Shown here: piece by piece, positions 1,254 through 43,192 of the stretch
Position numbering within the stretch: position 1 is the stretch's first letter
Layout: each line of letters opens with the position of its first letter
Assembly: GCA_017417465.1 (NCBI GenBank)
Contig: JAFPZD010000157.1
Location: 1-54,053 of the forward strand
DNA: 54,053 nucleotides
Reading direction: 5' to 3'
Source: Prevotella sp.
Lineage (GTDB): Bacteria > Bacteroidota > Bacteroidia > Bacteroidales > Bacteroidaceae
Position numbers and translations under genes: made by a program
Notes under the pieces: model-generated
What the model was told of the DNA's origin: nothing
What the model saw: the letters and a program-made list of their open reading frames with translations, nothing else
Databases searched by the model: none

Positions 1254-1318
1254 GACCCCAGATTCTGCAGCAGAACTATAAAATTCCCCCTCCCCTGGGG
1301 AGGGGCAGGGGGTGGGTT
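1208..1318. repeat. Pair of GC-rich dispersed repeats at an operon junction
   Basis: Two related C-rich/G-rich imperfect palindromes, around 1208-1240 (CTTTCCCCAAGGGAGGTGGG) and 1286-1316 (CCCCTCCCCTGGGGAGGGGC), flank about 45 bp between the glycyl radical enzyme and its activase. They extend into the first codons of the activase. A similar segment lies in the CobJ-CbiC linker near 16,370. The pair is probably a dispersed element; each palindrome could also fold in the mRNA and affect translation of the activase. Confidence 0.6.
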
Positions 1319-3753: not shown

Positions 3754-3812
3754 CTTGGGTGTTTTCGATTTGGGGTTGCAAATATAGGTGTCTGCCTGAC
3801 CAGGAGCGAATG

Positions 3813-5210
3813 TCAGCCGTTCGTCTTTGCGGCGTAGACTTCGTCGATGGTCATTGGCTTCTTGACGGTGCCCAACAGGCGGGCGCCATCGGGAGTGATG
3901 AGGTAGTTCAGCTCGTTGCGCAGACCGGTGAAGTCGCGCCAGGGAGCAAGGCGGTCGTAGCAGATGAAGTCAGTGAAACGGTGCTCAGCCTGCCAGCGGT
4001 CCATCAGCTCGGGGATGAAGTAGATGCCCGGCTCGACGGTGAACACGAAGCCAGGCTCGAGAGGGCGAGCCAGACGCAGCGACTTGAAGCCGAACTGCGT
4101 ACTCTTCTGCATCCCGTCGGCATAGCCGACGTACTGCTCGCCAAGGTTCTCCATGTCGTGGACATCGAGGCCCATCATGTGCCCCAGGCCACAAGGGAAG
4201 AACAGGGCGTAGGCCCCTGACTCGGCAGCCTCGGCGGGGTCGCCCTTCATCAGGCCCAGTTCCTTCATGCCACGGGCTATCTCGGTGGCAGCAGCGATAT
4301 GAGCCTCACGGAATGGCACGCCGGGCTGCAGCTTATCGACGGCTGCCCAGAAGCTGCGCAAGTGAATCTCGTAGACAGCAGTCTGACGGTCAGTGAAGCG
4401 CTCACTGACAGGCATCGCCGACGACAGGTCGCCAGCATAGTGGGCCTTCAACTCGGCACCAGCATCGAGCAGGAAGATGTCGCCATCGTGTAGCTCATGG
4501 ATGAAGCCGTGGTTGTGGAGCACCTGCCCCTGCACTGTGGCGATGGTTGGGAAGGCCAGATTACCGCGATGACTGCATGCCACCTGTTCGACGGCAGCAG
4601 CCACCTCTGCCTCGTGGAGTCCTGGACGCACCATGGCGTAGGCGGCGAGGTGCATGCGGGTGCTCAGGTCAACGGCAGCCTCGATATGGCGAACTTCCTC
4701 ATCGTCCTTGTGGTTGCGCATATTAACCACGGCCTTGACGAATTGCACGGATGCCTTTTCTATCTGGGCGGCAGGTTCCACGCCAAGCAGCTCCCACAGC
4801 CACACCTTGTGGTCGCCACGATAGGGCGGCAGGAAGTGGATGGGCTGACCTTTAGCATTAGCCTGATCAAGAAAAGCTTTCAGCTCGCTTAAGGGACGAC
4901 TGTCGGTGATGCCCACCGTGGCGCAGTTCTCTTTGAGCGACGGCATGGCGCCTGTCCACACAATGTCGTCGATAGTCAGGTCGTTGCCAAAGACGATCTC
5001 CTTGTCGTTATCGATGTCGATAATGGCGGCAAGCCCGGCATAGTCGAGACCGAAATAATAGAGGAACGTCGAATCCTGACGGAAACGATAGGTGTTGTCG
5101 ACATAGTTCATCGGGGCCTCGTCGTTGCCCAAGAAGAGCAACAGACCGCTGCCCATGTCATGTTTCAGTTGCGCACGGCGGCGCACGAATGAATCTTTGT
5201 TGATTTGCAT
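3813..5210 (-). CDS. pepP: M24 family Xaa-Pro aminopeptidase (aminopeptidase P)
   Basis: 465 residues, the usual size for aminopeptidase P, with an N-terminal AMP_N-like domain (about 1-140) and a pita-bread metallopeptidase domain (about 170-450). The five metal ligands are visible: Asp in FLLDAGAE, Asp in HYAGDLSS, His in CGLGHMMGLDVHD, Glu in TVEPGIYF and Glu in GLRNELNYL. It should remove N-terminal residues preceding proline, in the cytoplasm, since no signal peptide is seen. It is the first gene of a three-gene set with the glycyl radical dehydratase (59 nt downstream) and activase. This supports a peptide-bound proline/hydroxyproline substrate for that set. The transposase gene ends 14 nt upstream of its start. 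Confidence 0.92.
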   Translation of the reverse strand: MQINKDSFVRRRAQLKHDMGSGLLLFLGNDEAPMNYVDNTYRFRQDSTFLYYFGLDYAGLAAIIDIDNDKEIVFGNDLTIDDIVWTGAMPSLKENCATVGITDSRPLSELKAFLDQANAKGQPIHFLPPYRGDHKVWLWELLGVEPAAQIEKASVQFVKAVVNMRNHKDDEEVRHIEAAVDLSTRMHLAAYAMVRPGLHEAEVAAAVEQVACSHRGNLAFPTIATVQGQVLHNHGFIHELHDGDIFLLDAGAELKAHYAGDLSSAMPVSERFTDRQTAVYEIHLRSFWAAVDKLQPGVPFREAHIAAATEIARGMKELGLMKGDPAEAAESGAYALFFPCGLGHMMGLDVHDMENLGEQYVGYADGMQKSTQFGFKSLRLARPLEPGFVFTVEPGIYFIPELMDRWQAEHRFTDFICYDRLAPWRDFTGLRNELNYLITPDGARLLGTVKKPMTIDEVYAAKTNG

Positions 5211-5224
5211 AATAATTATGGTGT

Positions 5225-6313
5225 TTAAGAGATTTCAGAACTTTGGAAGGCCATGCTTTCGGCCAAGGCATTCAGCGAAGAGCACTCATCGCGGGTAATG
5301 CGACACTCCTTGGCAACGCCAGTGGCAAGGGTGAGCAACAGCAGACGACCTTCAGAGCAGTGGCTAATCAGCTCACCAAGAGGCTTGTGGTAGTCAGAGA
5401 AAGGTTCCACGCACAGCTGTATGCAGAAGAGCCCCTCGCGCAAAGACTCGTCGCGTACGCGCTTCTCGTGCTCGCTGACAAAGGGACTGACGAGAACAGC
5501 TCCACGGCGGGCTGCGATAATGCAACCGTTCATGTAATCCCGGCGTTGGTCATCGTTGAAATAACGGCGCACATGTACTGCAACGAGGGGCGCATCGAGC
5601 AGCCGCACCTGGCCTATAGCAGAGAAGCTCCGCGGTCCGAAGCGCACATTACGCTGAACGATGAAGAGGTCACGATGCTGGCGGCGAAGCATGAGGCGGC
5701 GGGGATTGTCGCGGACATAGTCAATCATGTTCTGCAGCTGGCCCTCGTGGACAAGCAGGCGGTCATGGTAGCCTTTCTCCCAAAGAGGGCGCAGGGGAGG
5801 ATTGCGGTTATCGCGCGAATACGCGCTACACCCAACCGGCGGAGCGCTCAGATCTGGGTGACGGTCGGGTGCCCCGCATATTTGCGGGGAGGAAAACGGG
5901 GAGGGTGACGGGGAGGGTAGCGGGGAGGATGACGGGGAGGCTCCGTTATAAGCCTTGGTGCAGCCAACCATGAACCCTCTGATGACATCGCCAAGCGCAA
6001 TGTCCATCTCTTTCCTGACAAACAGAATGCCATGAAAATGATCGGGCATCAGCTGCCAAACTATGAGGGTGATATCCCGTTCACAAGTTTGGCCTGTCTT
6101 TGCGGCCTTCTGTTCTGCAAGGCGACGCTGAATTTCTGGGATCTGTTTCCAACAGCACAGCACTTCGTTCCCCAGAGCAGTCGGCTCAATGATGGCCGTG
6201 TCAGGGGTGTCTCCCGTCAGATGGCCTAATAGTGGCAGGCGCCCTTCGGTGCAGAGGGTGACGAGGTAAATGCCGCGACCATGGTAGTCGTGGTGGAGGC
6301 TGCGTTTGTGCAT
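5225..6313 (-). CDS. REP-associated tyrosine transposase (RAYT, HUH/Y1) with extra C-terminal domain
   Basis: 362 residues from the ATG at 6313 (MHKRSLHHDYHGRG is the usual family start; an upstream ATG at 6358 adds 15 residues). The catalytic HUH motif is His92-Phe-His94 in PDHFHGILF. The likely nucleophile is Tyr182 in KGYHDRLL, followed by the family's YVRDNP. Such enzymes nick single-stranded REP hairpins. Two features are unusual. The linker at 125-160 (PSSSPLPSPSPSPFSSP) is encoded by G-rich 12-bp repeats plus a hairpin repeat (5862-5890). Residues about 235-340 (LLDAPLVAVHVRR, RRGAVLVSPFVSEHEK, EGRLLLLTLA) form a second domain resembling a DprA/SLOG-like Rossmann fold, which is tentative. 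Three 35-bp hairpin repeats lie upstream. Codon use looks like the neighbours. Confidence 0.82.
   Translation of the reverse strand: MHKRSLHHDYHGRGIYLVTLCTEGRLPLLGHLTGDTPDTAIIEPTALGNEVLCCWKQIPEIQRRLAEQKAAKTGQTCERDITLIVWQLMPDHFHGILFVRKEMDIALGDVIRGFMVGCTKAYNGASPSSSPLPSPSPSPFSSPQICGAPDRHPDLSAPPVGCSAYSRDNRNPPLRPLWEKGYHDRLLVHEGQLQNMIDYVRDNPRRLMLRRQHRDLFIVQRNVRFGPRSFSAIGQVRLLDAPLVAVHVRRYFNDDQRRDYMNGCIIAARRGAVLVSPFVSEHEKRVRDESLREGLFCIQLCVEPFSDYHKPLGELISHCSEGRLLLLTLATGVAKECRITRDECSSLNALAESMAFQSSEIS
5862..5890. repeat. REP-like hairpin, copy 1, inside the RAYT gene
   Basis: Plus strand reads GGTCGGGTG, then CCCCGCA-TATT-TGCGGGG (7-bp perfect stem, 4-nt loop). Copies at 25,670-25,698 and 43,871-43,899 share the 5' GGTCGGGTG-like flank and TATT loop but have the stem GCCGGCA/TGCCGGC. 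Stem pairs 1 and 4 are C-G here and G-C there, a compensatory change. Confidence 0.75.
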
Positions 6314-6365
6314 CTGGGGCACTCGGCGGCTGTCGCGGTTGTTAGGGGCGCTACACATATTTATA

Positions 6366-6470
6366 ATGGGCGCTCAAATATGAGCTGAACACAACCAGGA
6401 ATGGACGCTCAAATATGAGCTTCACATAACCTGAGATGGGCGCTCAAATATGAGCTCCACACAACCAAGT
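6366..6470. repeat. Three tandem 35-bp hairpin repeats upstream of the RAYT gene
   Basis: Exact 35-bp units at 6366-6400, 6401-6435 and 6436-6470. Each contains GCTCA-AATA-TGAGC (5-bp stem, 4-nt loop) followed by CACAACC or CATAACC. On the minus strand, the direction of the transposase, each reads GGTTGTGT or similar and then a hairpin with a TATT loop. That matches the layout of the dispersed hairpin copies at 5862, 25,670 and 43,871. The last unit abuts the stop codon of the metallopeptidase gene. There are no spacers, so this is not CRISPR. Confidence 0.85.
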
Positions 6471-7321
6471 TAGGGCTTGTGACAGGCATCGATTTTCGGG
6501 TGCTTGCTGATTTGAAGATTGGTCGTTGGGAAGTACTCGGCGAGAAGGGCATAAAGGTCGGGATCGTAGTCGAGGAGCTCTTCGCGGGTGTTGCACCAGT
6601 TATGCTTACCGTCAGTGTGGGGCATCTCGGCATTGACGTTGAACCAGTCCTGGACGGCCTCGGCCAGATATTCTTCCTTGTCAGTGATGCGGTAGGTGCC
6701 ATCGAGCATGCCGCTTGCCTTCGCCTTCTCGTAGAGCGCCTGCAAGCGGGTGTTAAACGTGGTGTCGACCTGAATGATGCCGATGCAGTGGATGGCGTGT
6801 GCAAACTCGTGGATAAGGATATCCTCGGCGTGGTACTTGTCGATCTGGTATGCCAGGATGTTCTCCTCGGCACAACTGGTCAACGGCTCGTCGATGGTAC
6901 CGCCAAGGCCACGGGCACGCAGGTCCCAGTTCAGGGCCGTATCGTTCACGAGATAGTGATGTTCAGGCAGGTCGGTGGTACCCTCGTAGCGCGCCATGAT
7001 AGCAACGCGGGCCCCTGTGCGCTTCATGGCATCGAGTACCTCAGGCGCCAGCATGCTGGTCATAGCGTACAGCGTGCGGTGAGCTGCCACAAAGGCAGAG
7101 TCGGGCACGCGCCAAGACGAGATGAGCGGCAGACCGTTCACGTCGACATACTTCGTGTAGAAGGGGTCAAGACCAAGGGAGTCGGGCGGTGTGGTAACGA
7201 TACATTCGGGAATGTCGAGCACTTCGTCGGCGGCAGCCACAGCAGTCGTTTCCTTCGGTGTCTGCTGGCAGGCGGCACAGGCCACAAGTGCGAGCAGTGA
7301 AATCAAAATCTTTTTCATCAT
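6470..7321 (-). CDS. Putative zinc metallopeptidase lipoprotein
   Basis: About 283 residues from the ATG at 7321. The N-terminus is a lipoprotein signal (MMKKILISLLALVACAAC), with lipidation at one of the two cysteines. The zinc-binding motif HEFAHAIH (HExxH) lies near the middle. A downstream EYLAEAVQDWF supplies a plausible third ligand Glu, the gluzincin-like arrangement seen in M34/anthrax-LF-like and related secreted peptidases. Conserved-looking LGGTIDEPLTSCAEEN precedes the active site. No substrate can be named. It is a single gene, transcribed away from mdh; its stop codon touches the 35-bp repeat array. Protease function is inferred from the motif alone. Confidence 0.7.
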   Translation of the reverse strand: MMKKILISLLALVACAACQQTPKETTAVAAADEVLDIPECIVTTPPDSLGLDPFYTKYVDVNGLPLISSWRVPDSAFVAAHRTLYAMTSMLAPEVLDAMKRTGARVAIMARYEGTTDLPEHHYLVNDTALNWDLRARGLGGTIDEPLTSCAEENILAYQIDKYHAEDILIHEFAHAIHCIGIIQVDTTFNTRLQALYEKAKASGMLDGTYRITDKEEYLAEAVQDWFNVNAEMPHTDGKHNWCNTREELLDYDPDLYALLAEYFPTTNLQISKHPKIDACHKP

Positions 7322-8645: not shown

Positions 8646-8677
8646 TTTGCCTGAACGGCACAAAAGCAGTACCTTTG
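8646..8677 (+). promoter_or_regulatory. Promoter of the cobalamin operon
   Basis: -33 TTTG at 8646-8649 and -7 TACCTTTG at 8670-8677 with a 20-nt spacer, close to the Bacteroidetes consensus. It lies just upstream of the riboswitch aptamer. Confidence 0.75.
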
Positions 8678-8683
8678 CACTCC

Positions 8684-8858
8684 GATTTGGTAACCGTGAG
8701 GCAAAAGCCCCTACGGTGCAAGGGAATCAGGTGTAAATCCTGAGCTGTACCTGCAGCTGTCATCCGCGTTCAAAGGAACTGGCACCAAGTCACTGTCCCC
8801 GCTATGATGGGGATGGGAAGACGCCAGTTCGGTGCGGAGAGCCAGAAGACCTGCCACG
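8684..8858 (+). promoter_or_regulatory. Cobalamin riboswitch
   Basis: Recognised from conserved blocks in order: GGTGCAAGGGAATCAGGTG, AATCCTGAGCTGTACCTGCA, GTCACTGTCCCCGC, GGGAAGACGCCAGT and the B12 box AGCCAGAAGACCTGCC at 8840-8855. It precedes a TonB receptor and the whole cob operon, so adenosyl- or methylcobalamin should repress expression. The start of the first gene (8906) is 48 nt after the aptamer, consistent with control of translation initiation. The open frame beginning at 8804 runs through the aptamer and its first codons are not used. Confidence 0.95.
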
Positions 8859-8905
8859 TCGAAGAAAAGAAAAACAATGCCTTCAGGAATAAAGGCTGGA
8901 AATCA

Positions 8906-11200
8906 ATGCAAGCAAAAAGAACGATGCTGGGCGTCCTTGTGGCGCTGTTGTACTGTGTGTGCCTATGGTCTCAGGAAATGAACGACTCACTTCCCGAGGT
9001 AGTTGTCACAGGCACTGGCACGCAGCACCTGCTGCGCACGGCACCCGTACAGACCGAGGTCATCAGCGGGCGCCAGCTGCGGCAGTACGGTGGTCGCTCG
9101 CTGGAGGACATTCTCAGCGGCCTCTCTGCCTCGTTTGCGTTCAACGAGGGTGACATGGGCAGTCAGATGCAGATGAACGGTCTGGGCAACAACTACATCT
9201 TGGTGCTCGTCGACGGCAAACGCCTTCACGGCGACGTAGGTGGCGAGAACGACCTTAGCCTCATCGACCCCCACAGCATCGAAAAGATAGAGATCGTAAA
9301 AGGAGCCGCCTCGGCGCTTTATGGCAGCGATGCTATTGCCGGCGTGGTGAACATCATCACAAAGAAGCACAACGAGGGTCTGCTCGTCGAGAACACCACA
9401 CGCGTGGGCAGCTACGGCGACGTTCGTCAGCACAACGGGCTTGGCATCGGTCTGGGGCCGATAAAGAGCTACACCAACTTTCAGCTGCAGCACAGCGATG
9501 GCTGGCAGAACACGGCCACCGAGTGGACGCCGTCGTCGGCAGCACCTATCACCGACTCACGTAGCAAGACGGTGAACCGCCACACTAACTGGCAGCTCAG
9601 CGAACAGCTCACTTGGAGCGTCCGCCCAACGTTGGAGGTCTATGGCGGTGGCTCTATATATAAAAAAGGTATATACCGCCCGAAGGGCAAATACCCGAAA
9701 TACGATGTGAAGACTTTCGACATGAACTACGAGAATGCCTCGGCCTCCGTTGGCGGGAAGTGGCGCCACGGTCTGACGCGGTCTGACACAGACGCCGTCA
9801 CTCTCGACGTAGACTGGAACCGTCACGCCTACTACCATGCCTTCACATCGACCACACTGGCTGAAGGTTTCGATGAGCAGGGGCAACTGATTCTCGACTT
9901 CCCCTATTTTGAAGGGCAACGGGCTCTACAGACTGACCAACAGCGCATCATGGGACACCTGAAAGGTGTGTTCACACTGTCGGAAGCCCACCGCCTCAGT
10001 GCGGGCATCGAGGTACGTCACGACTACCTGAAAGCTCCCACCAGTATTGCCGGAGGCACTGCCACAGATGACACAGAGGCCCTCTACGTGCAGGACGAGT
10101 GGAGCATCGGTTTTTCTAAAGGCCACGGTTTAACACGGTTGGACACGGAAGGAGGTAACAAAGGGAAGAATGGCCACGGTTCAACACGGTTAGGCACGGA
10201 AGGAGATAACAAAGGGAAGAATGGCCACGGTTCAACACGGTTGGACACGGAGCATACCTTGTTGCACGTCACTCCCGGCTTGCGTCTGAACCGCAACGAG
10301 GGGTTCGGATTGCGACTGACACCGAAACTGTCGGCCATGCTGGCCTTGGGAGACCTGCGCCTGCGGGCCTCATGGAGCCAGGGTTTCAAGACACCCACGT
10401 TGAAAGAGCGCAACTACCGCTACCTACGTGAAATGACAACAGTGATGCTCTATCTGGGCAATGCCGACCTGAAGCCGCAGACCTCTAACTACTACTCGCT
10501 GAGTGCTGAGTACACGCTGGGACGGCTGAACATGTCGGTGACAGGCTACTACAACCGACTGGACGACATGATCACACTGGTCACCATCCCCGTGAGCAAC
10601 GCGCCTGCCGACTATCGGCAACAGTATGGCGAGATGTTGAGCAAGGTGCGCCACTATGAAAACATGGAGGACGCCCGCACATGCGGCATCGACATCAACC
10701 TGCGCTACAGTTGGCGCGACCTGACCTGCGGACTGGGCTACAGCTATCTGGACACCGATGCCCACGTCTACGACGACAGCCACGGCACCCTCGTCCCAGT
10801 GACTATCGACGGCATGGCCCGTCATAAGGGCAACTGCTTTGTGACGTGGCAGCACGCTTTCTCGCCTTTCTACCGTATGAGTATAGGACTCTACGGACGC
10901 ATGTCGACGAAACGCTATTATCAGAACGACGGCGATGGCAAGGGCTGGCAGATGTGGCGTCTCAGCACGGGCCACGACCTCGGTCACTCGAAACAGTTCG
11001 ACTGGCGCGTGGAGGCCGGCATCGACAATATCCTGAACTACTGCGACCGCACGCCTCACGGTCTACACCTGGGCACCACCACACCGGGCCGCACCGTCTA
11101 TGCCACGCTCACCGTGCGCTTCCATCAAGGCAAACAACTCAAATTCACAAATAACACTAAGTCAAACTTAAAAAACAAACAACAAGATGAAGAAGATTAA
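8906..11200 (+). CDS. TonB-dependent outer-membrane receptor (BtuB-like)
   Basis: 764 residues from the ATG at 8906. It has a signal peptide (MQAKRTMLGVLVALLYCVCLWSQ), a TonB box-like region (SLPEVVVTGTG), a plug domain (about 30-150, with KRLHGDVGGENDLSLIDP and KGAASALYGSDAIAGVVNII) and a C-terminal 22-strand barrel. Its place directly after a cobalamin riboswitch makes it a corrinoid, or possibly cobalt/tetrapyrrole, transporter of the BtuB class. The barrel contains a 17-residue tandem repeat (GHGSTRLDTEGDNKGKN-like, 10,121-10,251), likely in an extracellular loop. It overlaps the next gene by 14 nt. Substrate is inferred from regulation and neighbours. Confidence 0.92.
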   Translation: MQAKRTMLGVLVALLYCVCLWSQEMNDSLPEVVVTGTGTQHLLRTAPVQTEVISGRQLRQYGGRSLEDILSGLSASFAFNEGDMGSQMQMNGLGNNYILVLVDGKRLHGDVGGENDLSLIDPHSIEKIEIVKGAASALYGSDAIAGVVNIITKKHNEGLLVENTTRVGSYGDVRQHNGLGIGLGPIKSYTNFQLQHSDGWQNTATEWTPSSAAPITDSRSKTVNRHTNWQLSEQLTWSVRPTLEVYGGGSIYKKGIYRPKGKYPKYDVKTFDMNYENASASVGGKWRHGLTRSDTDAVTLDVDWNRHAYYHAFTSTTLAEGFDEQGQLILDFPYFEGQRALQTDQQRIMGHLKGVFTLSEAHRLSAGIEVRHDYLKAPTSIAGGTATDDTEALYVQDEWSIGFSKGHGLTRLDTEGGNKGKNGHGSTRLGTEGDNKGKNGHGSTRLDTEHTLLHVTPGLRLNRNEGFGLRLTPKLSAMLALGDLRLRASWSQGFKTPTLKERNYRYLREMTTVMLYLGNADLKPQTSNYYSLSAEYTLGRLNMSVTGYYNRLDDMITLVTIPVSNAPADYRQQYGEMLSKVRHYENMEDARTCGIDINLRYSWRDLTCGLGYSYLDTDAHVYDDSHGTLVPVTIDGMARHKGNCFVTWQHAFSPFYRMSIGLYGRMSTKRYYQNDGDGKGWQMWRLSTGHDLGHSKQFDWRVEAGIDNILNYCDRTPHGLHLGTTTPGRTVYATLTVRFHQGKQLKFTNNTKSNLKNKQQDEED
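10121..10251 (+). repeat. 51-bp in-frame tandem repeat in the TonB receptor
   Basis: About 2.6 units starting at 10,121, 10,172 and 10,223. Each encodes 17 residues beginning GHG(L/S)TRL, so unit changes keep the frame. The core words CCACGGTT and ACACGG recur around 9768 in the same gene and at 30,557-30,582 in the 5'-nucleotidase gene, so the unit seems built from a dispersed repeat. Confidence 0.85.
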
Positions 11201-12296
11201 ATTCCTTCTGCTGGCCATGATGGCCATGATGACCGCCACGACTTTCGTGGCCTGTAGTGACGACGATGACGACAACAACAGCGTCAGTGAGAACATGGCT
11301 CGCTACCAGAGCGAGGTGGACCAGGTTGTAAAGAGTCAGAAGAAGAACTCGAAAGCCATCCTCCTCGTGGCTTTCGGTAGCACTTGGCAGCAGGCCTACG
11401 ATGCCTTCGACCTGACCCGTTCAGAGTATGAGAAAGAGTTCGCCGGCTACGACGTGTACCTTTCGTTCTCAAGTGCCATCTGCATCAACCGTGCCCGCGC
11501 AGCCGAGAACACCACTGCCCGTTCGTTCTATGAGCCCAAGTATTGGCTGGAGGCCTTCGGCCGCGTGCAGTACAGCGAGATCATCGTGCAGTCGATGCAG
11601 GTCATCCCCGGTGAGGAGTTCAGCCGCGTGGTGAACGCCATGAAGGACTTCGGCAACAACTCGAACGGCGACCTCGACGACAAGTACATGTCGAAGGTCG
11701 TCCTGAAGCTCGGCATGCCCCTGATGTACACCGTGGCTGATGCCGCCACCCTGGCCGGTGCACTGCACCAGAACTTCTCGAAGTACACGCAGAATGGCGC
11801 CATGTGCTTCATGGGTCACGGCAATCCTGACGAGTATGACACCTACAAAGCCAACGTGCGCTACACCCAGCTGGAGAATGCGCTGCAGAAGCTTAACAAG
11901 AACTACTTCGTGGGTACCGTCGACATGGCCGACAACTACAAGGTGCAAGTCTGCAACCGCATGAAGGCTGCTGGCCTGACCAGCGGTAATGTCTATTGCG
12001 CTCCCCTGATGTCGATTGCCGGTGACCACGCTCACAACGACATGGCTGGTGACGACGACGAGTGGGAAGCCTCGATGGCCACTCAGACCGAGGACGAGGC
12101 TGAGGACGTCAGCTGGAAGAAGTACTTCGAGCACATGGGCTACATAACCGAAGCCAACGGCACCTACGTGGACAATGGTGACAACGCCCTGGTGAAAGGT
12201 CTGCTAGAGTACAGCAACATCCGCGCCCTGTATAAGAACCACACCCGCCAGGCTGAGGTGGTTGACTTCTACCACTCGATGTATCCCGAGGAGTAA
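11187..12296 (+). CDS. cbiK: Exported sirohydrochlorin cobaltochelatase CbiK (lipoprotein)
   Basis: 369 residues. The CbiK fold (about 50-365) would insert Co2+ into sirohydrochlorin. Both metal/catalytic histidines of CbiK appear conserved: His211 in MGHGNP and His281 in AGDHAHNDMAGD. Unlike the Salmonella enzyme it begins with a lipoprotein signal (MKKIKFLLLAMMAMM...FVAC) with lipidation at Cys23. The next residues, SDDDDDNN, resemble the lipoprotein export signal that takes Bacteroides lipoproteins to the cell surface. The mature protein should therefore sit outside the cytoplasm, perhaps on the surface next to the TonB receptors. Its job may be chelation of scavenged tetrapyrrole, cobalt capture or corrinoid binding. 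It follows the receptor with 14-nt overlap and abuts the binding-protein gene. Confidence 0.88.
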   Translation: MKKIKFLLLAMMAMMTATTFVACSDDDDDNNSVSENMARYQSEVDQVVKSQKKNSKAILLVAFGSTWQQAYDAFDLTRSEYEKEFAGYDVYLSFSSAICINRARAAENTTARSFYEPKYWLEAFGRVQYSEIIVQSMQVIPGEEFSRVVNAMKDFGNNSNGDLDDKYMSKVVLKLGMPLMYTVADAATLAGALHQNFSKYTQNGAMCFMGHGNPDEYDTYKANVRYTQLENALQKLNKNYFVGTVDMADNYKVQVCNRMKAAGLTSGNVYCAPLMSIAGDHAHNDMAGDDDEWEASMATQTEDEAEDVSWKKYFEHMGYITEANGTYVDNGDNALVKGLLEYSNIRALYKNHTRQAEVVDFYHSMYPEE

Positions 12297-13439
12297 ATGA
12301 GACATGCAGCAATAGGGCTGTCGCTGCTTGCTTCCGCGCTGCTGCTGTCGTGTGGAACAAAGGAACGAAGGCCTGAACAGACAGTGACGGCCAACGAGCT
12401 CTACCTGCATCACGACACTGTCTGGCAACACGCCGACGACTACAGCGACACCATCGAGATACGCTATGCCAAAGGGCTCAGCGTCAGCTATGAGTCCGAC
12501 GGCATACATATCGCCATCAGCAACCCCGACCCTGCCGCCGCGAGCGGCAGGGTTGAGGCTTTTGTAATGACCAAGCCCGCCAGCCGCTTCATCTGCACCA
12601 CGGCATTGCAGGTGGGCAACTTCGAGGTCTTGGGCCTGGAGGACCGCATCGTGGGCATGAACTCTTTGCGCAACCTCTTTTCGCCGCAAGTGAAGGCACA
12701 GATGGCCGACGGGCGCACCGTGCGCATCGGCAAAGAGGGTAACTTCGACCTGGAAACCGTTATCGCTGCCCGCCCCGACTACATCTTCGTGTCGGCATCG
12801 AAGCACGGTGGTTTCGAGGCACTGAAGGAGTGCGGCATCCCCCTGCTGTCGCACCACGGATATAAAGAGACGGACCCGCTAGGCCAGGCCGAGTGGATAA
12901 AGCTCATCGGACTGCTTACGGGTGAGACGCGCCGCGCCAATGCAGTCTTTGCCGACATCGAGCGCAAGTACCTGACGTTGCGCGACGAGGTGGCACGCCT
13001 CGACTCGCTCAGCCGCCCCACTATCATCAGTGGTCGGCAGATACGTGACGGCTGGTATATTGCTGGTGGCCGCAGCTATCTGGCACAGTTGTTCCACGAT
13101 GCCGGTGCTCGCTACATCATGGCCGACAACGAGGACTCTGGTGGCACCACGCTCGACTTCGAGGCCGTCTATGCCCGTGGCCTCAATGCCGACTTTTGGC
13201 AGACTGACGGTAGTTTCGACGGCGACTTCACGCTGCAGACACTGGCTGACGAAGACCCACGCTACGCCTCTATGCGTGCATGGAAAGAGCAGCACGTGCT
13301 CTTTTGTAACCTAACCCGCAAGCCCTATCGGGAATTGGCCGGCGTACAGCCTCACCTGCTGTTGGCCGACTTCGTAAAAGCATTCCACCCCGAGCTATTG
13401 CCCGACTATCACCCTACTTACTATGAGATCATTAAATAA
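12297..13439 (+). CDS. BtuF-like ABC substrate-binding lipoprotein
   Basis: 380 residues. The signal peptide ends in the lipobox LLLSC (Cys19). The body is a class III periplasmic binding protein with two lobes and a helical linker (VGMNSLRNLFSP, TVRIGKEGNFDLETVIAARPDYIFVSA, IPLLSHHGYKETDPLGQAEWIKLIGLL). It should pass corrinoid or a cobalt-tetrapyrrole to the BtuC-type permease encoded about 8.5 kb downstream in the same operon. The ATG directly follows the cbiK stop codon, and the end overlaps the second TonB receptor by 17 nt. Substrate identity rests on context. Confidence 0.85.
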   Translation: MRHAAIGLSLLASALLLSCGTKERRPEQTVTANELYLHHDTVWQHADDYSDTIEIRYAKGLSVSYESDGIHIAISNPDPAAASGRVEAFVMTKPASRFICTTALQVGNFEVLGLEDRIVGMNSLRNLFSPQVKAQMADGRTVRIGKEGNFDLETVIAARPDYIFVSASKHGGFEALKECGIPLLSHHGYKETDPLGQAEWIKLIGLLTGETRRANAVFADIERKYLTLRDEVARLDSLSRPTIISGRQIRDGWYIAGGRSYLAQLFHDAGARYIMADNEDSGGTTLDFEAVYARGLNADFWQTDGSFDGDFTLQTLADEDPRYASMRAWKEQHVLFCNLTRKPYRELAGVQPHLLLADFVKAFHPELLPDYHPTYYEIIK

Positions 13440-15549
13440 GCCAGCCTGGTGGATAGATGCTATAGCTTCTATAGTATCTATAGTTTCTATAGTAACTATA
13501 GTGTCTATAGCTTCTGTAGAGGCTGTGGCGCAGCCTGTCGACTCGTTGCGCTCACAACTGCTGAACCCTGTTGTTATTACTGGTACAGGCACTTATCACC
13601 GTGCCGACAACTCACCTGTGGCCGTGAAAGTCATTACCGCCAAAGAGCTTCAGAACGCAAAGGTGAGCACACTGCAGGAGGCACTGGCACGGCTAACCAC
13701 CCACGTCACCACCCATACCAACGGCATGGGAGAGTTCATCAACTTCAATGGTGTCAGCGACGACTATATCGTCATTCTTGAGAATGGACGGCGCGTAAGT
13801 GGCGACGACCGTTGGCAGCGCTTCAACCTGTCGAACGTGAAGCGCATCGAAATCTTCAGCGGGGCAGCCTCAGCCCTCTACGGCTCAGATGCCATAGCCG
13901 GTGTCATCAACATCATCACTGACGATAGTCGCTCATCGGTTGCAGCCACGTCAGACACCCAGTTTAAGAGTCACGGACGGCTGAGCCAGGACATCAGCAT
14001 CGACGTCAACAGCGGCAGTTTCTCTGCTCACACCAACTATGCCCATCGACAGGCTGACAACTGGCAAGTGAACCACTACCAATCCTTCAACGAGGATGGC
14101 ACTGAGGTGCTGAAACTAACGGGGCGTCCCATGTCGGCCGCTTTCCGCAGCGACAACATCAGCGAAAAGATGGAATGGCGCTTCGACGACCACTGGTCGG
14201 TCTATGTACGCGGTTCCTACTACGACTACCTGACAGCACGTCCACAGGCGGCTACCTACTTCACACAAAAGAAAGCCACAGACAAGACCACTGGCGAAAA
14301 GACATTTACGTACAGCGAGCGGCAGGCCTACACCTACGATCTGCACCATCAGTCGTACACCTACGGTGGCGGTGCCCGCTGGACTCCCAACAACCAAACG
14401 CACGTCTACCTCGATGTCTACAGCGACAACTATGCCTCGAAGTATGATTATTGGCAGACAGCCAAGGCCGAAAGCTACGACGAGACACGCAAGCGCACCC
14501 ATTATGTCAACGAGACACTGCGCGGCATTTTCCGACTAGCCTCATGGAACAAGCTGTCGGCCGGTATCGAACTGGTGCAGGAGAGTCTTAGTAGCCAGAG
14601 CGACAACATCGACTTCGAGACCACTGGCACCTACAATGTCTTTGCCCAGGACGAGGTGCAGATTGTGCAGGGACTGGAAGGCGTGGCTGGTCTGCGCTAC
14701 ACCCATAACGAGCATTTCGGCTCGGCACTGACGCCCAACGTGGGACTGTTCTACCACCTTGGTGGCTTCCGCTTACGCGCCAGCTATGCTGGTGGCTATC
14801 GCACCCCCACGCTGTCACAGCTCTATGCCACTGACCAGGCCAAAACCACGGCCCGCTACACGCTCTTCAACACACAGCTCAAACCTGAGAAGAACCATTT
14901 CTTCAATCTGAACGCTGAGTACAGCAACCATTGGATGAGTCTCTCAGTGACCGGCTTTATGAACAAGATACGCGACATGATCAACTACCGCACGATGACA
15001 CAGACCGAAATTGATGCCGACTCCTACCTGACCTCCTTGCAGGCCGACGGGTGGACCACCATCCGCCAGCGCGACAATATCGACCGTGCCACGCTACGAG
15101 GTGTCAGCGCCTCAGTGAAGTTGTTGCTGCCAGGCGGACTGACGCTCGGCGGCGGCTATACCTTCACCGACTCGGAGGCTGAGACGCAGACACTCGACAA
15201 GAAGACGCAGCTGTACGTCACGGAGACGACCGACGTGGACAAGAGCGTGCGCCATGTGGGCAGCGTGCTGGCGCAGTGGGACCACCAATGGCGTAACTAT
15301 CACTTGAACATCAGCCTGAACGGGCATCTGCAAGGCCGTCGCTACAGCAGCACTTACGGCTATGCCGATGGTTACAGCCAGTGGGACCTTACCACCAGCC
15401 ACGCCATCGCTCTGCGCCACTTCACACTGGAGCCAGGCCTCGGCATCGAGAACCTCTTCAACCAGCGTGACACGTCGCCTTGGAACGCCAACTTCTCGAC
15501 CATCAACCCCGGACGCTCGCTCGTGGTGAGCCTCCGCATGAAATATTAA
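13423..15549 (+). CDS. Second TonB-dependent receptor (BtuB-like)
   Basis: 708 residues with a plug (about 45-160; GTGTYHRADNSPVAVKVI, VILENGRRVSGDDRW, FSGAASALYGSDAIAGVINII) and a C-terminal barrel ending in VVSLRMKY. It is clearly related to the first receptor of the operon but not a copy of it. The start ATG at 13,423 overlaps the preceding gene. The hydrophobic core of the signal peptide is encoded by seven 9-bp units, giving AIA-SIV-SIV-SIV-TIV-SIA. Two BtuB-like receptors in one operon suggest different cobamides or a cobinamide/tetrapyrrole split; nothing in the sequence says which. Confidence 0.9.
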   Translation: MRSLNKPAWWIDAIASIVSIVSIVTIVSIASVEAVAQPVDSLRSQLLNPVVITGTGTYHRADNSPVAVKVITAKELQNAKVSTLQEALARLTTHVTTHTNGMGEFINFNGVSDDYIVILENGRRVSGDDRWQRFNLSNVKRIEIFSGAASALYGSDAIAGVINIITDDSRSSVAATSDTQFKSHGRLSQDISIDVNSGSFSAHTNYAHRQADNWQVNHYQSFNEDGTEVLKLTGRPMSAAFRSDNISEKMEWRFDDHWSVYVRGSYYDYLTARPQAATYFTQKKATDKTTGEKTFTYSERQAYTYDLHHQSYTYGGGARWTPNNQTHVYLDVYSDNYASKYDYWQTAKAESYDETRKRTHYVNETLRGIFRLASWNKLSAGIELVQESLSSQSDNIDFETTGTYNVFAQDEVQIVQGLEGVAGLRYTHNEHFGSALTPNVGLFYHLGGFRLRASYAGGYRTPTLSQLYATDQAKTTARYTLFNTQLKPEKNHFFNLNAEYSNHWMSLSVTGFMNKIRDMINYRTMTQTEIDADSYLTSLQADGWTTIRQRDNIDRATLRGVSASVKLLLPGGLTLGGGYTFTDSEAETQTLDKKTQLYVTETTDVDKSVRHVGSVLAQWDHQWRNYHLNISLNGHLQGRRYSSTYGYADGYSQWDLTTSHAIALRHFTLEPGLGIENLFNQRDTSPWNANFSTINPGRSLVVSLRMKY
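13459..13521 (+). repeat. 9-bp tandem repeat encoding the signal-peptide core
   Basis: Seven consecutive 9-bp units of the type TCTATAGTA (with variants GCTATAGCT, ACTATAGTG, TCTGTAGAG), codon-aligned, each coding three residues (SIV/SIA). Unit changes would lengthen or shorten the signal peptide in frame. A comparable 9-bp array with CTAG words lies between gldL and gldM (43,193-43,255). Confidence 0.85.
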
Positions 15550-15572: not shown

Positions 15573-17045
15573 ATGAAGATTTATGTCGTAGGCATCGGTC
15601 CTGGCTCGCCCGAGGACATCACACCCGCCGCCATCGAGGCCATCAGGCAGAGCGATGCCGTGGTGGGCTACAAATACTATTTCCAGTTCGTGACGCCCTA
15701 TCTGAAACCAGGAGCCGAGTGCATCGACACTGGCATGAAGCGTGAGCGTGAGCGCGCCGCCATGGCTTTCGACCAGGCCATGCAGGGCCGTGTGGTGGCC
15801 GTCATCAGCAGCGGCGATGCAGGGATCTACGGCATGGCACCGCTCATCTGGGAGATGCAGCGTGAACGGCAACAGCCAGTAGACATCGTCACCATTCCTG
15901 GCATATCGGCTTTCCAGAAAGCAGCCTCGCTCCTAGGTGCGCCCATTGGGCACGATCTGTGCATCATCTCGCTGTCGGACTTAATGACGCCGTGGGCACG
16001 CATCGAACGGCGCATTGAGGCGGCTGCCATTGGCGATTTCGTCACGGCAATCTATAATCCAAAATCGCACGGGCGCTACTGGCAGCTCTATCGACTGCAG
16101 GAACTGTTCCTCAAGCACCGCAATGCCAATACGCCCGTTGGCTATGTGCGCCAAGCAGGACGTGACGACCAAGCGGTGGTGACCACCACGCTCAGCAGTT
16201 TTGACCCTGAGCAGGTGGACATGTTCACCGTTGTCATCATCGGCAACTCGCAGTCGTATCTGCACAATGGGCATTTCATTACGCCACGTGGGTACAACCT
16301 CACCGACAGTTCCTCCCCAGAAGAGAGCGACGTGTATAGTTCATCTGCCGACAAGCCTAATCACTCCTCTCTCCTTGGGAAAGAGGTCAGGGGTGAGGCA
16401 GTCGGCCAGCAGATCATGATGCAGAGTTTCCGCACCATCGAAAGCGAGCTACAGCGCCATGACTATCCCTTGGATCACAAGTGGGCACTGCTGCACGCCA
16501 TCCATACGACGGCTGATTTCGACATGGAACACATACTCTATACTGATCCGCAAGCCGTAGAGACGCTCTACGGTAAGGTGACCGATGGCAGTCTGAAGAC
16601 TATCATCAGCGACGTGACGATGGTGACAAGCGGTGTCCGCAAAGGAGCTTTACAGCGGTTAGGCGTCGAAGCGAAGTGCTACCTCAGTGACCCACGCGTG
16701 GCTGAGATGGCGCTGTCGCAGGGCATTACCCGCACACAGGCCGGCATCCGTCTGGCCGTGGAGGAGCATCCCGACGCGCTGTTTGCTTTCGGCAATGCTC
16801 CCACGGCACTGATGGAACTGTGCGACCTCATTCGGAAAGGCAAGGCCCACCCCACCGGCATCATCGCTGCACCCGTCGGTTTTGTCCATGTCTGCGAGTC
16901 GAAACACATGGTTAAGACGTTTCGCAACATTCCAAAAATCATTGTCGAAGGGCGCAAGGGTGGCAGCAACCTGGCCGCGACGCTCTGCAATGCAGTCCTC
17001 TGCTTCGATGATGCGGCACAACTGCGACCAGGAAGGGATCTGTGA
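15573..17045 (+). CDS. cobJ-cbiC: Precorrin-3B C17-methyltransferase / precorrin-8X methylmutase fusion
   Basis: 490 residues from the ATG at 15,573 (MKIYVVGIGPGSPEDITPAA); the longer open frame upstream lies in the receptor gene. Residues 1-250 are CobJ/CbiH, a tetrapyrrole methylase, with the GxGxG start, SSGDAGIYGMAPL and IYNPKSHGRYWQL; it makes the ring contraction. Residues about 283-490 are CbiC, precorrin-8X methylmutase, with TADFDMEHIL, DVTMVTSGVRKG and catalytic-His-type HPTGIIAAPVGFV. The linker (about 245-280) is low-complexity and encoded by a GC-rich dispersed repeat (16,310-16,405). The gene follows the second receptor by 23 nt. Confidence 0.93.
   Translation: MKIYVVGIGPGSPEDITPAAIEAIRQSDAVVGYKYYFQFVTPYLKPGAECIDTGMKRERERAAMAFDQAMQGRVVAVISSGDAGIYGMAPLIWEMQRERQQPVDIVTIPGISAFQKAASLLGAPIGHDLCIISLSDLMTPWARIERRIEAAAIGDFVTAIYNPKSHGRYWQLYRLQELFLKHRNANTPVGYVRQAGRDDQAVVTTTLSSFDPEQVDMFTVVIIGNSQSYLHNGHFITPRGYNLTDSSSPEESDVYSSSADKPNHSSLLGKEVRGEAVGQQIMMQSFRTIESELQRHDYPLDHKWALLHAIHTTADFDMEHILYTDPQAVETLYGKVTDGSLKTIISDVTMVTSGVRKGALQRLGVEAKCYLSDPRVAEMALSQGITRTQAGIRLAVEEHPDALFAFGNAPTALMELCDLIRKGKAHPTGIIAAPVGFVHVCESKHMVKTFRNIPKIIVEGRKGGSNLAATLCNAVLCFDDAAQLRPGRDL
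16310..16405. repeat. Dispersed repeat in the CobJ-CbiC linker
   Basis: The interdomain linker contains CTCTCTCCTTGGGAAAGAGG followed by TCAGGGGTGAGG, the same type of C-rich/G-rich palindrome as at 1208-1240. It codes a Ser/Glu-rich stretch (SSSPEESDVYSSSADK) that is not part of either enzyme domain. Confidence 0.55.
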
Positions 17046-17057
17046 GAACTGAGAGTT

Positions 17058-18371
17058 ATGATTAGATTTGTAGTTATCGGTATTACTGATTCGCCACAGC
17101 CGTTCTTTCCGCCCGAAGTATTGGCAATCATAAAGGAGGGACGGGTGTTCTCGGGAGGCAAGCGCCATCATGAGATTATGAAGCCATTCTTACCTGCTGA
17201 CGCGGAATGGATAGACATCACCGCTCCCATCGACGATGTCTTCTGCAAATACAAATCTCAAATCGCCGCACGGCCAGAGGACGTTTGCCCCCAAAGGGAC
17301 GCAAGAAGCCTCACCCCCCAAACCATCATCGTTTTTGCCAGTGGCGACCCGCTGTTCTTCGGTTTTGCCAACACCATTTGCCAACGCATGCCAGAGGCTG
17401 AGGTGCAGGTATTCCCCACTTTCAACTCCCTGCAGATGCTGGCCCACAGGCTGCTGCTGCCTTACCACGATATGCGCATCGTCTCGCTGACAGGTCGCCC
17501 TTGGCCAGACTTCGACCGTGCCTTGATTGAACATGCACCAAAGATAGGCATTCTCACCGACCGTGAGCATACCCCTGCGACCATTGCCCGCCGCATGATG
17601 GACTACGGCTATACCTATTATAAAATATACATTGGCGAGCATCTGGGGAATCCCACGCTTGAAAAGGTCAGTGTGCTTACGCTTGAAGAAGCTGCCAAGC
17701 ACGACTTTGCCCAACCCAACTGCGTGATTGTGGTGAAGAGTGAACAGGTTTCACATTTCACACATTACCATTCACTGAATAGACCTTTCGGCCTTTCCGA
17801 TTCGTCTTTTGCCTTACTCGACGGGCGTGAGAAGATGATTACCAAGATGCCAATCCGCCTGCTCACGCTACAAGCGCTCGACCTGACGTGCCGCCAAGTG
17901 CTATGGGACATCGGCTTCTGCACGGGCAGCGTCTCTATCGAGGCCCGTTTGCTGTTTCCCCATCTTCACATTGAGGCCTTCGAAGTACGCCCAGAGTGCG
18001 AGGCCATCATCCACGAGAACGCCCGACGCCACGGTGCTCCCGGCATTGGCGTCCACATCGGCGACTTCCGCTCAGTATGTTGCGATGCCATCGCAACAAA
18101 CGGAACCCCCGATGCCATCTTCATCGGCGGACACGGTGGCCACCTCAAGGACATCATGGCAAAAGCCAAAAGCTACATGCAGCCGGGCGGCATCATGGTA
18201 ATGAACAGCGTCAGCTCGCCCGTGGTAGACCGTCTGACTGACCGCCCCAGCAGTCGCCAGCTCTTTGACGAGGCCTGCCATGAGTTGGACCTCATACAGT
18301 ATCCGCCTCTCCATATCACCCTCAACGACCATAACCCTATCGACATACTGAAATGCGAACTGCCATCATAA
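17058..18371 (+). CDS. cbiE-cbiT: Precorrin-6Y C5,15-methyltransferase (CbiE-CbiT / CobL)
   Basis: 437 residues. The N-terminal tetrapyrrole methylase (about 1-230) is CbiE (FVVIGITDSP, IIVFASGDPLFFGF, SLTGRPW). The C-terminal class I methyltransferase (about 245-437) is CbiT (LWDIGFCTGSVSIEARLL, VRPECEAIIHENA, AIFIGGHGG). Together they methylate C5 and C15 and decarboxylate the acetate side chain. An insertion near residues 70-90 (RPEDVCPQRDARSLTPQT, DNA 17,270-17,325) falls just before the conserved SGDPLFFG motif. It resembles an insert in cobQ at 25,086-25,125, so it is probably a dispersed repeat. It starts 12 nt after the previous gene and overlaps the next by 19 nt. Confidence 0.93.
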   Translation: MIRFVVIGITDSPQPFFPPEVLAIIKEGRVFSGGKRHHEIMKPFLPADAEWIDITAPIDDVFCKYKSQIAARPEDVCPQRDARSLTPQTIIVFASGDPLFFGFANTICQRMPEAEVQVFPTFNSLQMLAHRLLLPYHDMRIVSLTGRPWPDFDRALIEHAPKIGILTDREHTPATIARRMMDYGYTYYKIYIGEHLGNPTLEKVSVLTLEEAAKHDFAQPNCVIVVKSEQVSHFTHYHSLNRPFGLSDSSFALLDGREKMITKMPIRLLTLQALDLTCRQVLWDIGFCTGSVSIEARLLFPHLHIEAFEVRPECEAIIHENARRHGAPGIGVHIGDFRSVCCDAIATNGTPDAIFIGGHGGHLKDIMAKAKSYMQPGGIMVMNSVSSPVVDRLTDRPSSRQLFDEACHELDLIQYPPLHITLNDHNPIDILKCELPS

Positions 18372-20155
18372 CCATCACAGCAGCGGGCGATGCTGTTGCC
18401 CGTATCGTCCAGCAAGAAACTCAGGGCCAATCCATCGACCGCGCCGACGTGGGTCGTCTCTGGTCCGACTTCGACGCTTTTGTGTTCATCGGTGCGATGG
18501 GCATCTGTGTGCGTACCATTGCTCCGTACGTCGCAGACAAGCACAGCGACCCCGCAGTGGTCTGCATCGACAGCACCGGCCGCCACGTCGTCTCGGTGCT
18601 CAGCGGCCATGTGGGTGGTGCCAACGACCTGTCACGCCATTTGGCTGCAGCGCTCGGAGTAGAGCCCATCATTACCACACAGAGCGACAACCAGAACTTA
18701 TGGGCACTTGACATGCTGGCACAGCGCTATGGCTGGAACGAGCCTTACGGCAACATGCAGAAAGCCATTTTCGCCTTTGTAGACCGTCAACCCACCGCGC
18801 TGCTTCTTGACATCCGCGACGAGGGCACCGACTACTTGGAACGCACACTGCCATCCCACGTCACGCTGGTACACAACATCAAGGACATTACACCTGACAG
18901 TTTCAAACTGGCCATCATCGTATCGCCCAAAAGCTATGACACCATCAAGGACGTGCCGACCATCCACTACGTTCCTCGGGTGCTGACACTTGGCCTCGGT
19001 CTGGCCCGACAGGCCGGCCCCGTAGATGAGGTAAGAAGAAATATCGTCAATGACCTGCGCACCAATCGCTATGACCTGTCGGCCATCCGCGACATCGCTA
19101 CCGTCGACATCAAAGCCGACGAGCCTGTCATCAAGCAATTGCAGCAGGAAGGCTATCACGTACATTTCTTCACTGCCGATGAGCTCTGCACCATCGAGGT
19201 GCCCACCCCCAGCAACATCGTAGCCTGCCATATAGGCACGCCCAGCGTCTGCGAAGCTGCAGCCATCCTTGCCACCGATAACGGCCAACTGCTGCTACCT
19301 AAGGAGAAAGGCACCAACTACACCATTGCCCTGGCCATCGACCGACGTCATCTGCGCGGTACCTCACCAAAGAGTACCCTATGCTGCGATATAGCAGCCC
19401 CCCATATCGAGATTGTTGGTGCTGGCCCTGGCGACCCCGACTTGATATCGGTGCGCGGTCGCCGCTTCTTGGAACAGGCCGACCTCATTCTCTATGCTGG
19501 CAGTCTGGTACCCCGCGAACTCACTGAGTGCCACAAGCCTGGCGCTGTGGTCCGCTCATCAGCCTCGATGGCACTTGAGGAGCAGTGCGCACTGATGAAA
19601 GAGTTCTACGATCAAGGCAAGCTCATCGTCCGCTTACACACTGGCGACCCCTGCATCTTCGGTGCCATCCAAGAGCAGATGGCTTTCTTCGACGAGCACC
19701 AGATGTCATACCACATCACGCCGGGCATCTCATCATTCCTTGCCGCTGCCGCCGAGCTTCGCAGCCAGTTCACTATCCCTGAGCGCACACAGACCATCAT
19801 CCTGACCCGTGGCGAGGGCCGCACGCCCATGCCCGACAAGGAGAAGTTGCACCTTCTGGCACGCTCGCAGAGCACCATGTGCATCTTCCTCAGTGCAGCC
19901 ATCGTCGACGATGTGCAGCGCGAACTGCTGCAGGAGTATCCCGAGGACACACCCGTGGCCGCCTGTTACCACCTGACATGGGCCGACCAACGCATCTACC
20001 GTGGCCAGCTGAAAGACCTTGCACGCATCGTCCACGACAACAATCTCACCCTCACCACGATGCTTGTCGTAGGTGAGTCCATCGACAACCGTCACGGATT
20101 GTCAGAACTCTACAACCGCAACTTCACGCACCTCTTCCGAAAAGGCACCACATGA
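18353..20155 (+). CDS. cbiG-cobM: Cobalt-precorrin-5A hydrolase / precorrin-4 C11-methyltransferase fusion
   Basis: 600 residues. The N-terminal half (about 1-335) is CbiG, which opens the lactone and releases acetaldehyde in the anaerobic pathway (FVFIGAMGICVRTIAPYV, STGRHVVSVLSGHVGGAN, C-terminal LGLGLARQAG and ATDNGQLLLPKEKG). The C-terminal half (about 350-600) is CobM/CbiF, with VGAGPGDPDLISVRG, YAGSLVPREL, LHTGDPCIFGA, ITPGISSFLAAAA and ILTRGEGRTPMP. Having CbiG marks the oxygen-independent route. It overlaps its neighbours by 19 and 4 nt, pointing to translational coupling. Confidence 0.94.
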   Translation: MRTAIITITAAGDAVARIVQQETQGQSIDRADVGRLWSDFDAFVFIGAMGICVRTIAPYVADKHSDPAVVCIDSTGRHVVSVLSGHVGGANDLSRHLAAALGVEPIITTQSDNQNLWALDMLAQRYGWNEPYGNMQKAIFAFVDRQPTALLLDIRDEGTDYLERTLPSHVTLVHNIKDITPDSFKLAIIVSPKSYDTIKDVPTIHYVPRVLTLGLGLARQAGPVDEVRRNIVNDLRTNRYDLSAIRDIATVDIKADEPVIKQLQQEGYHVHFFTADELCTIEVPTPSNIVACHIGTPSVCEAAAILATDNGQLLLPKEKGTNYTIALAIDRRHLRGTSPKSTLCCDIAAPHIEIVGAGPGDPDLISVRGRRFLEQADLILYAGSLVPRELTECHKPGAVVRSSASMALEEQCALMKEFYDQGKLIVRLHTGDPCIFGAIQEQMAFFDEHQMSYHITPGISSFLAAAAELRSQFTIPERTQTIILTRGEGRTPMPDKEKLHLLARSQSTMCIFLSAAIVDDVQRELLQEYPEDTPVAACYHLTWADQRIYRGQLKDLARIVHDNNLTLTTMLVVGESIDNRHGLSELYNRNFTHLFRKGTT

Positions 20156-43176: not shown

Positions 43177-43192
43177 TGTTGTTGTTTCGAGT

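Follow-up and report, generated by a model that had tools for sequence, protein, structure and literature searches.

This analysis concerns a gene for a CbiK-type chelatase, together with the operon that contains it, in a stretch of DNA of 54,053 nucleotides from Prevotella sp. (GenBank assembly GCA_017417465.1, contig JAFPZD010000157.1, positions 1 to 54,053 of the forward strand), which at its full length is referred to here as the window. The open reading frame (ORF) at 11187-12296, coordinates that are exact, runs from ATG to stop on the plus strand and encodes 369 amino acids beginning with MKKIKFLLLAMMAMMTATTFVACSDDDDDNNS. Upstream lie a cobalamin riboswitch and a TonB receptor gene that overlaps the chelatase gene by 14 bases. 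For the receptor, whose mechanical ORF begins at 8804, the start was set at the Met that follows the riboswitch. The features of this unit are as follows (counts out of 92 refer to the distinct relatives described below):

8671-8872, plus strand: cobalamin riboswitch aptamer RF00174 at the operon head (Rfam 86.8 bits, gathering threshold 31.5, E 4.3e-20)
8906-11200, plus strand: TonB-dependent receptor TBDT1, in an IhtA-like position (Pfam Plug 1.7e-23, TonB_dep_Rec_b-barrel 4.5e-36)
11187-12296, plus strand: lipoprotein CbiK of the lipoprotein export signal (LES) type, class II chelatase fold (PF06180, FetB match, AlphaFold2 model)
11187-11255, plus strand: signal peptide and lipobox with Cys23 (sequence; Cys in 92/92)
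11256-11270, plus strand: SDDDD, putative lipoprotein export signal directly after Cys23 (sequence, conserved acidic stretch, motif of PMC5080379)
11817-11819, plus strand: codon of His211, equivalent to Salmonella His145 (alignment; kept in 92/92)
11922-11924, plus strand: codon of Asp246 (Glu at this position in CbiKP, FetB, Salmonella CbiK and the short exported CbiKs)
12027-12029, plus strand: codon of His281, equivalent to Salmonella His207 (alignment; kept in 92/92)

The chelatase and its N-terminus

Residues 56-355 of the protein match the Pfam CbiK family PF06180 with an E value of 2.1e-40 and 139.1 bits against a curated cut-off of 26.2. His211 lies in the motif FMGHG and His281 in AGDHA, and a phmmer alignment to the Salmonella enzyme (PDB 1qgo), on which positions were counted, equates them with His145 and His207, the catalytic pair of that enzyme according to PMC7689651. 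The chelatase fold is intact in an AlphaFold2 model, built for the window protein only (pLDDT 84.7, pTM 0.84), whose nearest structures are FetB/IhtB of P. gingivalis (Foldseek TMt 0.89) and the periplasmic CbiK of Desulfovibrio. FetB (PDB 9b86) is also the best sequence match in the PDB, with an E value of 5.7e-27, and the best structural matches are chelatases, the BtuG and BtuH families not being among the matches listed.

Conservation was followed in 102 LES-type CbiK ORFs scoring above 200, which correspond to 92 distinct proteins from named-genome and same-genus loci. From the named genomes, 80 of 115 relatives were kept, under the titles Prevotella, Prevotellaceae, Bacteroidaceae, Bacteroides or Bacteroidales, and many of these records name ruminants. 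Nine short CbiK ORFs with a signal peptide and no acidic stretch, out of 111 matches, were excluded, and G022:C40 is outside the set read. His211, His281 and Asp246 are unchanged across all 92 proteins, in line with the preliminary description of this locus, which had stated that both CbiK histidines are retained.

The same description had proposed that a lipobox is followed by an export signal rich in Ser and Asp, and this proposal extends well to the relatives. Signal peptide and lipobox were assigned by sequence pattern; in the window protein Cys23 is followed by SDDDDD, and the lipobox Cys is present in every LES-type CbiK read (102 ORFs). Positions +2 to +7 after this Cys contain two acidic residues in 2 proteins, three in 22, four in 33, five in 34 and six in 1, so that at least three of the six residues are acidic in 90/92. 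The sequence SDDD follows the Cys immediately in 49/92, and L099 and L100 carry a Glu/Lys repeat in its place. As a control, the binding-protein lipoproteins encoded in the same operons show 0-1 acidic residues at these positions in 14/14 readable cases out of 16 ORFs, identical copies included (3 judged by a script filter, 11 by eye and 2 unreadable). SDDDD is described as the consensus lipoprotein export signal of B. fragilis, and a test in C. canimorsus showed it to function there (PMC5080379). On the basis of this motif, the window CbiK would be exposed at the cell surface.

The receptor-CbiK unit and its operon

A TonB receptor of the TBDT1 type lies directly upstream of CbiK in 101/102 copies, the last copy being at a contig edge, so that the adjoining receptor noted earlier is a constant companion of the chelatase. 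Directly downstream, the 102 copies show a TBDT2-like receptor in 69, the binding protein in 12, CbiHC in 6, CobD in 1, another gene in 13 and a contig edge in 1. Where the locus is 12 kb or longer (60 copies), a B12 gene is found nearby in 55 cases and a corrin-ring gene in 44. The preliminary description had not mentioned the cobalamin riboswitch that heads the operon. In a first set of 11 loci, such a riboswitch leads the receptor-CbiK unit in 9/9 evaluable cases, L002 and L045 being cut inside the receptor and hence not evaluable, and in L041, L046 and L047 another receptor stands ahead of the unit. In a second set of nine loci, of which three lack this CbiK gene, RF00174 was found in all six that carry it, including L137. 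The possibility of a contig artefact was rejected, as the receptor-CbiK arrangement recurs in named Prevotella and Bacteroidaceae genomes. At L003, two cobalamin riboswitches lie back to back on opposite strands (5245-5687).

Locus L137 is a second unit of the window genome itself (G000, contig C2, 7.4 kb), with a riboswitch, a TonB receptor and an LES-type CbiK at 3103-6663; no corrin genes are in view on this contig, and a TonB-receptor-like ORF lies upstream (687-3056). The operon of the window continues with these genes:

12297-13439, plus strand: periplasmic-binding-protein lipoprotein, BtuF/IhtC-like (Peripla_BP_2 3.9e-22; Cys followed by GTKERR, no acidic stretch)
13423-15549, plus strand: second TonB-dependent receptor TBDT2, BtuB-like (best NCBIfam model TIGR01779 TonB-B12, 161.5 bits, below the cut-off of 599.7)
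15573-17045, plus strand: cbiH-cbiC fusion (TIGR01466 321.8 bits; CbiC 4.4e-65), start set at an internal Met, mechanical ORF from 15480
17058-18371, plus strand: cbiE-cbiT fusion (TIGR02467 148.1 bits, TIGR02469 96.6 bits)
18353-20155, plus strand: cbiG-cbiF fusion (CbiG_N/mid/C; TIGR01465 340.2 bits)
20152-21993, plus strand: cbiJ-cbiD fusion (CbiJ 4e-46, CbiD 1.1e-80)
22003-23019, plus strand: BtuC-like FecCD permease (FecCD 1.9e-71; best NCBIfam model BtuC, 202.4 bits, below the cut-off of 334)
23006-24346, plus strand: cobB/cbiA, cobyrinic acid a,c-diamide synthase (NF002204 451.2 bits, cut-off 254)
24334-25830, plus strand: cobQ/cbiP, cobyric acid synthase (NF001989 587.1 bits, cut-off 273)
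25843-26814, plus strand: cobD-like threonine-phosphate decarboxylase (TIGR01140 229.5 bits, below the cut-off of 290.55)
26905-27870, plus strand: cbiB, adenosylcobinamide-phosphate synthase (TIGR00380 210.5 bits, cut-off 165.9)

Of the permease and ATPase that a locus of the IhtB/FetB system would have, the FecCD permease is present at 22003-23019; no transporter ATPase was found among the window proteins scanned, a scan that covers part of the ORFs of the window. Compared with the PDB, TBDT1 and TBDT2 match TonB receptors of several ligands (CirA, BtuB, FepA-type and heme receptors) and give no clear hint of a substrate. Two repeats were observed inside operon genes: the barrel region of TBDT1 repeats some 20 residues in frame (GHGSTRLDTEG..NKGKN), and CobB contains the internal repeat NSQFSILNSQFSTLNSQFSTLNSQ, where a short repeated element has apparently been inserted in frame. 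Elsewhere in the window, a glycyl-radical PFL-like enzyme with an adjoining radical-SAM 4Fe-4S protein is encoded at 288-3753, and type IX secretion genes occupy 39722-46922 (GldL, GldM, GldN and PorP/SprF, with the place of GldK taken by a protein that has an FGE-sulfatase domain).

In a quick tree of 60 CbiK domains, the window protein and its second copy fall in a purely LES-type branch of 33 rows (SH-aLRT 92), within a wider branch of 39 rows that includes one signal-less row and one plain-signal row. Short CbiKs with plain signal peptides form a separate branch of 13 rows. To this second exported type belong L083-L090, L048 and L054, which have a signal peptide and, judged by eye, neither an acidic stretch nor a clear lipobox. 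At L143 (4261-12865), a short-type CbiK is part of an operon led by its own cobalamin riboswitch, beside a CobN-size ORF where the genus CobN match lies.

An exported CbiK is also found in Desulfovibrio vulgaris, whose periplasmic cobaltochelatase CbiKP (PDB 2xvx) has the same fold and both histidines. Unlike the window CbiK, CbiKP is not known to be a lipoprotein or to have a TonB receptor as partner; its position 96, a heme ligand there, corresponds to Ser146 of the window protein when counted on the alignment. It could be proposed by comparison that the window protein is an outer-membrane lipoprotein facing the periplasm, with an acidic stretch that causes no flipping, and that the ring is metallated after passing the receptor. 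CbiKP and the second exported type of the genus lend some substance to such an arrangement; we nevertheless hold it to be improbable, as the acidic stretch is retained throughout this family, and the binding proteins of these operons, which presumably face the periplasm, do not have it.

Tetrapyrrole and corrin genes in the genome and its relatives

The preliminary description had remarked that the operon holds no cytoplasmic chelatase, and the remark can be extended to the whole assembly. It contains two CbiK genes, both for LES-type lipoproteins, and searches for a second, cytoplasmic chelatase with CbiK, CbiX and CobN turned up none. A further premise of that description, that sirohydrochlorin is made in the cytoplasm, does not hold for this genome: HemB and HemC were searched for in the assembly and none was detected (HemA, HemL and HemD were not part of the search), and SUMT is not among its tetrapyrrole methylases (TP_methylases). 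A chelatase outside the cell is consequently not misplaced, since it sits where a tetrapyrrole would have to be acquired. These findings also bear on the possibility of ordinary de novo cobalt insertion in the cytoplasm, with a spurious signal or a mis-called start. Membership of the CbiK family and the position beside cbi genes would suit it; the missing HemB, HemC and SUMT do not, and a mis-called start was rejected because signal peptide, Cys and acidic stretch are conserved in 92/92, which leaves this possibility with almost no probability.

The distribution of these genes was examined in 60 genomes of the same genus, the window genome included. CbiK occurs in 23/60, in one of them (G024) only as a 60-residue fragment (L104) that was left out of the co-occurrence count, and CbiD in 21/60. 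LES-type CbiK (19/60) and CbiD are found together in 18 genomes, LES-type CbiK only in 1, CbiD only in 3 and neither in 38, so that CbiD is present in 18/19 genomes with LES-type CbiK versus 3/41 without it (Fisher 2.5e-11). With linked genes and related genomes, the p value overstates an association that reflects a shared function or locus rather than 18 independent events. HemB was found in 2/60 genomes and HemC in the same two, both of them without CbiK and CbiD.

Across the order, CbiK occurs in 16/247 genomes, again including the window genome; N-termini were here judged by eye, and HemB was checked for the 15 other CbiK genomes. A signal-less CbiK is present in 3/15 (L149, L150, L157), and all three are HemB-positive. 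In the eight HemB-less genomes every readable CbiK is exported, the fragment L164 having no readable start. Two of the three signal-less cases come from one family, so this pattern of HemB and signal is suggestive only.

Of the 21 CbiD-positive genomes in the genus sample, 19 have corrin-ring genes such as those at 15573-21993 of the window and no CbiL, and none of the 14 that were inventoried has SUMT. CbiL is present in 2/21 CbiD genomes and, just below cut-off, in one CbiD-less genome. A further methylase of each inventoried genome is RsmI (TIGR00096, 14/14; above cut-off for the copy of the window genome, the sole score printed). A hidden CbiL or SUMT was rejected on the inventory of this genome and 13 others, in which RsmI is the sole methylase outside the cbi set.

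Precedents and proposed role

The closest precedent, likewise absent from the preliminary description, is IhtB/FetB of P. gingivalis (PDB 9b86), a CbiK-homologous lipoprotein with the TonB receptor IhtA and the binding protein IhtC. It shares the fold of the window CbiK at 29-30% identity, and receptor and binding protein adjoin CbiK in the window too. IhtB is presented as a putative heme-binding lipoprotein thought to take iron out of heme (PMC10913741), and a review mentions FetB-dependent Mn-protoporphyrin in P. gingivalis (PMC13402209). As for the N-terminus, the window protein has SDDDDD after its Cys, and the IhtB signal peptide is printed in PMC10913741 as far as ...LSCS, where the comparison ends. 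This precedent gives shape to a role in heme/iron or metalloporphyrin handling at the surface, in which iron would be removed from heme or another metal inserted into protoporphyrin. The match to FetB in both sequence and structure, the shared layout and the Mn-protoporphyrin report are in its favor, as is the best NCBIfam model of TBDT1, TonB-hemin, although below its cut-off. Nevertheless, IhtB/FetB is described for heme/iron, whereas the window has a cobalamin riboswitch and corrin-ring genes, and its CbiK has Asp rather than Glu at the third metal position. Because it is under cobalamin control and linked to corrin genes, the window family is IhtB-like in layout and probably handles another ring, and we regard a heme function as quite unlikely.

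Salmonella CbiK is the cytoplasmic enzyme of a complete pathway; it has the same fold and the His145/His207 pair, and Glu where the window protein has Asp in the motif VGTVD. BtuG, BtuH and BtuJ of Bacteroides are, like the window CbiK, B12-related lipoproteins from operons of BtuB receptors; they have other folds and are not known to possess a chelatase active site. BtuJ is reported to be a jelly roll (PMC12751083), and Bacteroides B12 operons to encode several cobamide-binding lipoproteins (PMC10404256, PMC12751083). The chelatase fold might have been reused without catalysis, as a surface binder of cobamides or cobinamide that loads the receptor. The riboswitch and the neighboring receptor, the Asp at the third metal position and the prediction that Bacteroidetes have the highest share of cobinamide salvagers (PMC6461909) are all consistent with such a binder. 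Against it stand the fold, kept in the model of the window protein, and His211 and His281, which are unchanged in every relative read and speak for catalysis, as a mere binder should not need the pair; capture of finished corrinoids is thus unlikely, if less so than a heme function.

The tetrapyrrole precursor salvagers of Shelton et al. (PMC6461909) likewise have corrin genes without early tetrapyrrole genes. That category, primarily Firmicutes, is defined there by a complete corrin pathway, whereas the window genome has no CbiL and exports its chelatase. In X. ruminicola, a riboswitch operon that comprises genes for two TonB receptors along with four B12 genes has been described (PMC11575231), which may be the same operon as that of the window, and a table of vesicle proteins of T. 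forsythia includes a CbiK (PMC4604654). No description of a surface CbiK in a cobalamin operon was found in the portions of the literature searched. The CbiKP residue at the position of Asp246, Glu184, is presumably its third metal ligand. A paper from 2000 reportedly noted a corrin pathway without early tetrapyrrole enzymes in P. gingivalis.

The reading that we favor, at a probability just short of even, is that the protein is a surface chelatase which captures and probably metallates a scavenged tetrapyrrole, to the benefit of the receptor it is paired with and of a truncated corrin pathway. It agrees with the export signal, the adjoining receptor, the riboswitch, the retained active site and the lack of early tetrapyrrole genes. 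In this rumen-type Prevotella, the absence of detectable substrate-making genes, combined with a probable surface chelatase beside an import receptor, suggests a B12 pathway that begins with a precursor from outside. In this mechanism, a class II chelatase displayed as a lipoprotein on the outer face of the outer membrane, and paired with the TonB receptor encoded upstream, would catch a tetrapyrrole or early corrin intermediate released by other organisms. Cobalt would probably be inserted or kept by the conserved His211/His281 (Asp246) site, and the loaded ring would pass to TBDT1 and be carried into the cytoplasm by the binding protein and the BtuC-type permease, where the products of cbiHC, cbiET, cbiGF and cbiJD would complete it. 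The riboswitch presumably turns the operon off when B12 is plentiful. Surface location, chelation, cobalt as the metal and hand-over to the receptor are all read from sequence and gene context, and are proposed in this sense.

Several observations weigh against this favored reading. The protein scores 99.3 bits with NF047852, the equivalog model for sirohydrochlorin cobaltochelatase, and is not filed as such because it misses the cut-off of 400. The third metal position is Asp in 92/92 proteins of the LES type and Glu in 8/8 of the short type; the change is conservative, and its presence in all 92 means that the metal or substrate may differ from those of the enzymes tested, so that the Asp of the VGTVD motif could be a sign that metal or ring has changed. 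The TonB-hemin model of TBDT1 (142.2 bits, cut-off 316.85, with the B12-receptor model at 129.1 and both far below their cut-offs) suits a heme function equally. Among the 21 CbiD genomes, the three without LES-type CbiK comprise two with a short exported CbiK only and one without CbiK, and four HemB-positive genomes of the order-wide survey also have an exported CbiK (one HemB match being a short contig-edge fragment). The assembly itself is 90.8% complete with 5.5% contamination. Finally, its TP_methylases are CbiH, CbiE, CbiF and RsmI and no more, which leaves it with neither SUMT nor CbiL; the inventory of 13 further CbiD-positive genomes showed CbiL in the same 2 as mentioned above and no SUMT.

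The lack of CbiL, a point that the preliminary description had not raised, is where the favored reading is weakest. Without CbiL, cobalt-sirohydrochlorin should not reach CbiH. Given the order of the corrin pathway steps (PMC8123684), the joint absence of CbiL and SUMT means that cobalt-sirohydrochlorin is not processable by the known route, and this argues against plain sirohydrochlorin as the substrate, which may instead be C20-methylated and similar to cobalt factor III. The gap could thus be explained either by import of a C20-methylated intermediate, by an unrelated replacement of CbiL, or by a corrinoid binder combined with corrin genes of later entry.

A broader and more tentative proposal, to which we give a clearly lower probability than to the favored reading itself, is that cobalt insertion has moved outside the cell in Bacteroidales deficient in heme synthesis. 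Their surface chelatase would metallate or select a tetrapyrrole leaked by neighbours and pass it through a dedicated TonB receptor into a truncated corrin pathway, entered at the C20-methylated stage or later, and the goods traded in the rumen would be B12 intermediates and not the vitamin. If this were true, gut and rumen Prevotella would start to build the corrin ring at their surface, from a shared precursor. Such a trade would fall outside the labels of "producer" and "cobinamide salvager", and it would account for the persistence of corrin-ring genes in genomes without heme-precursor genes.

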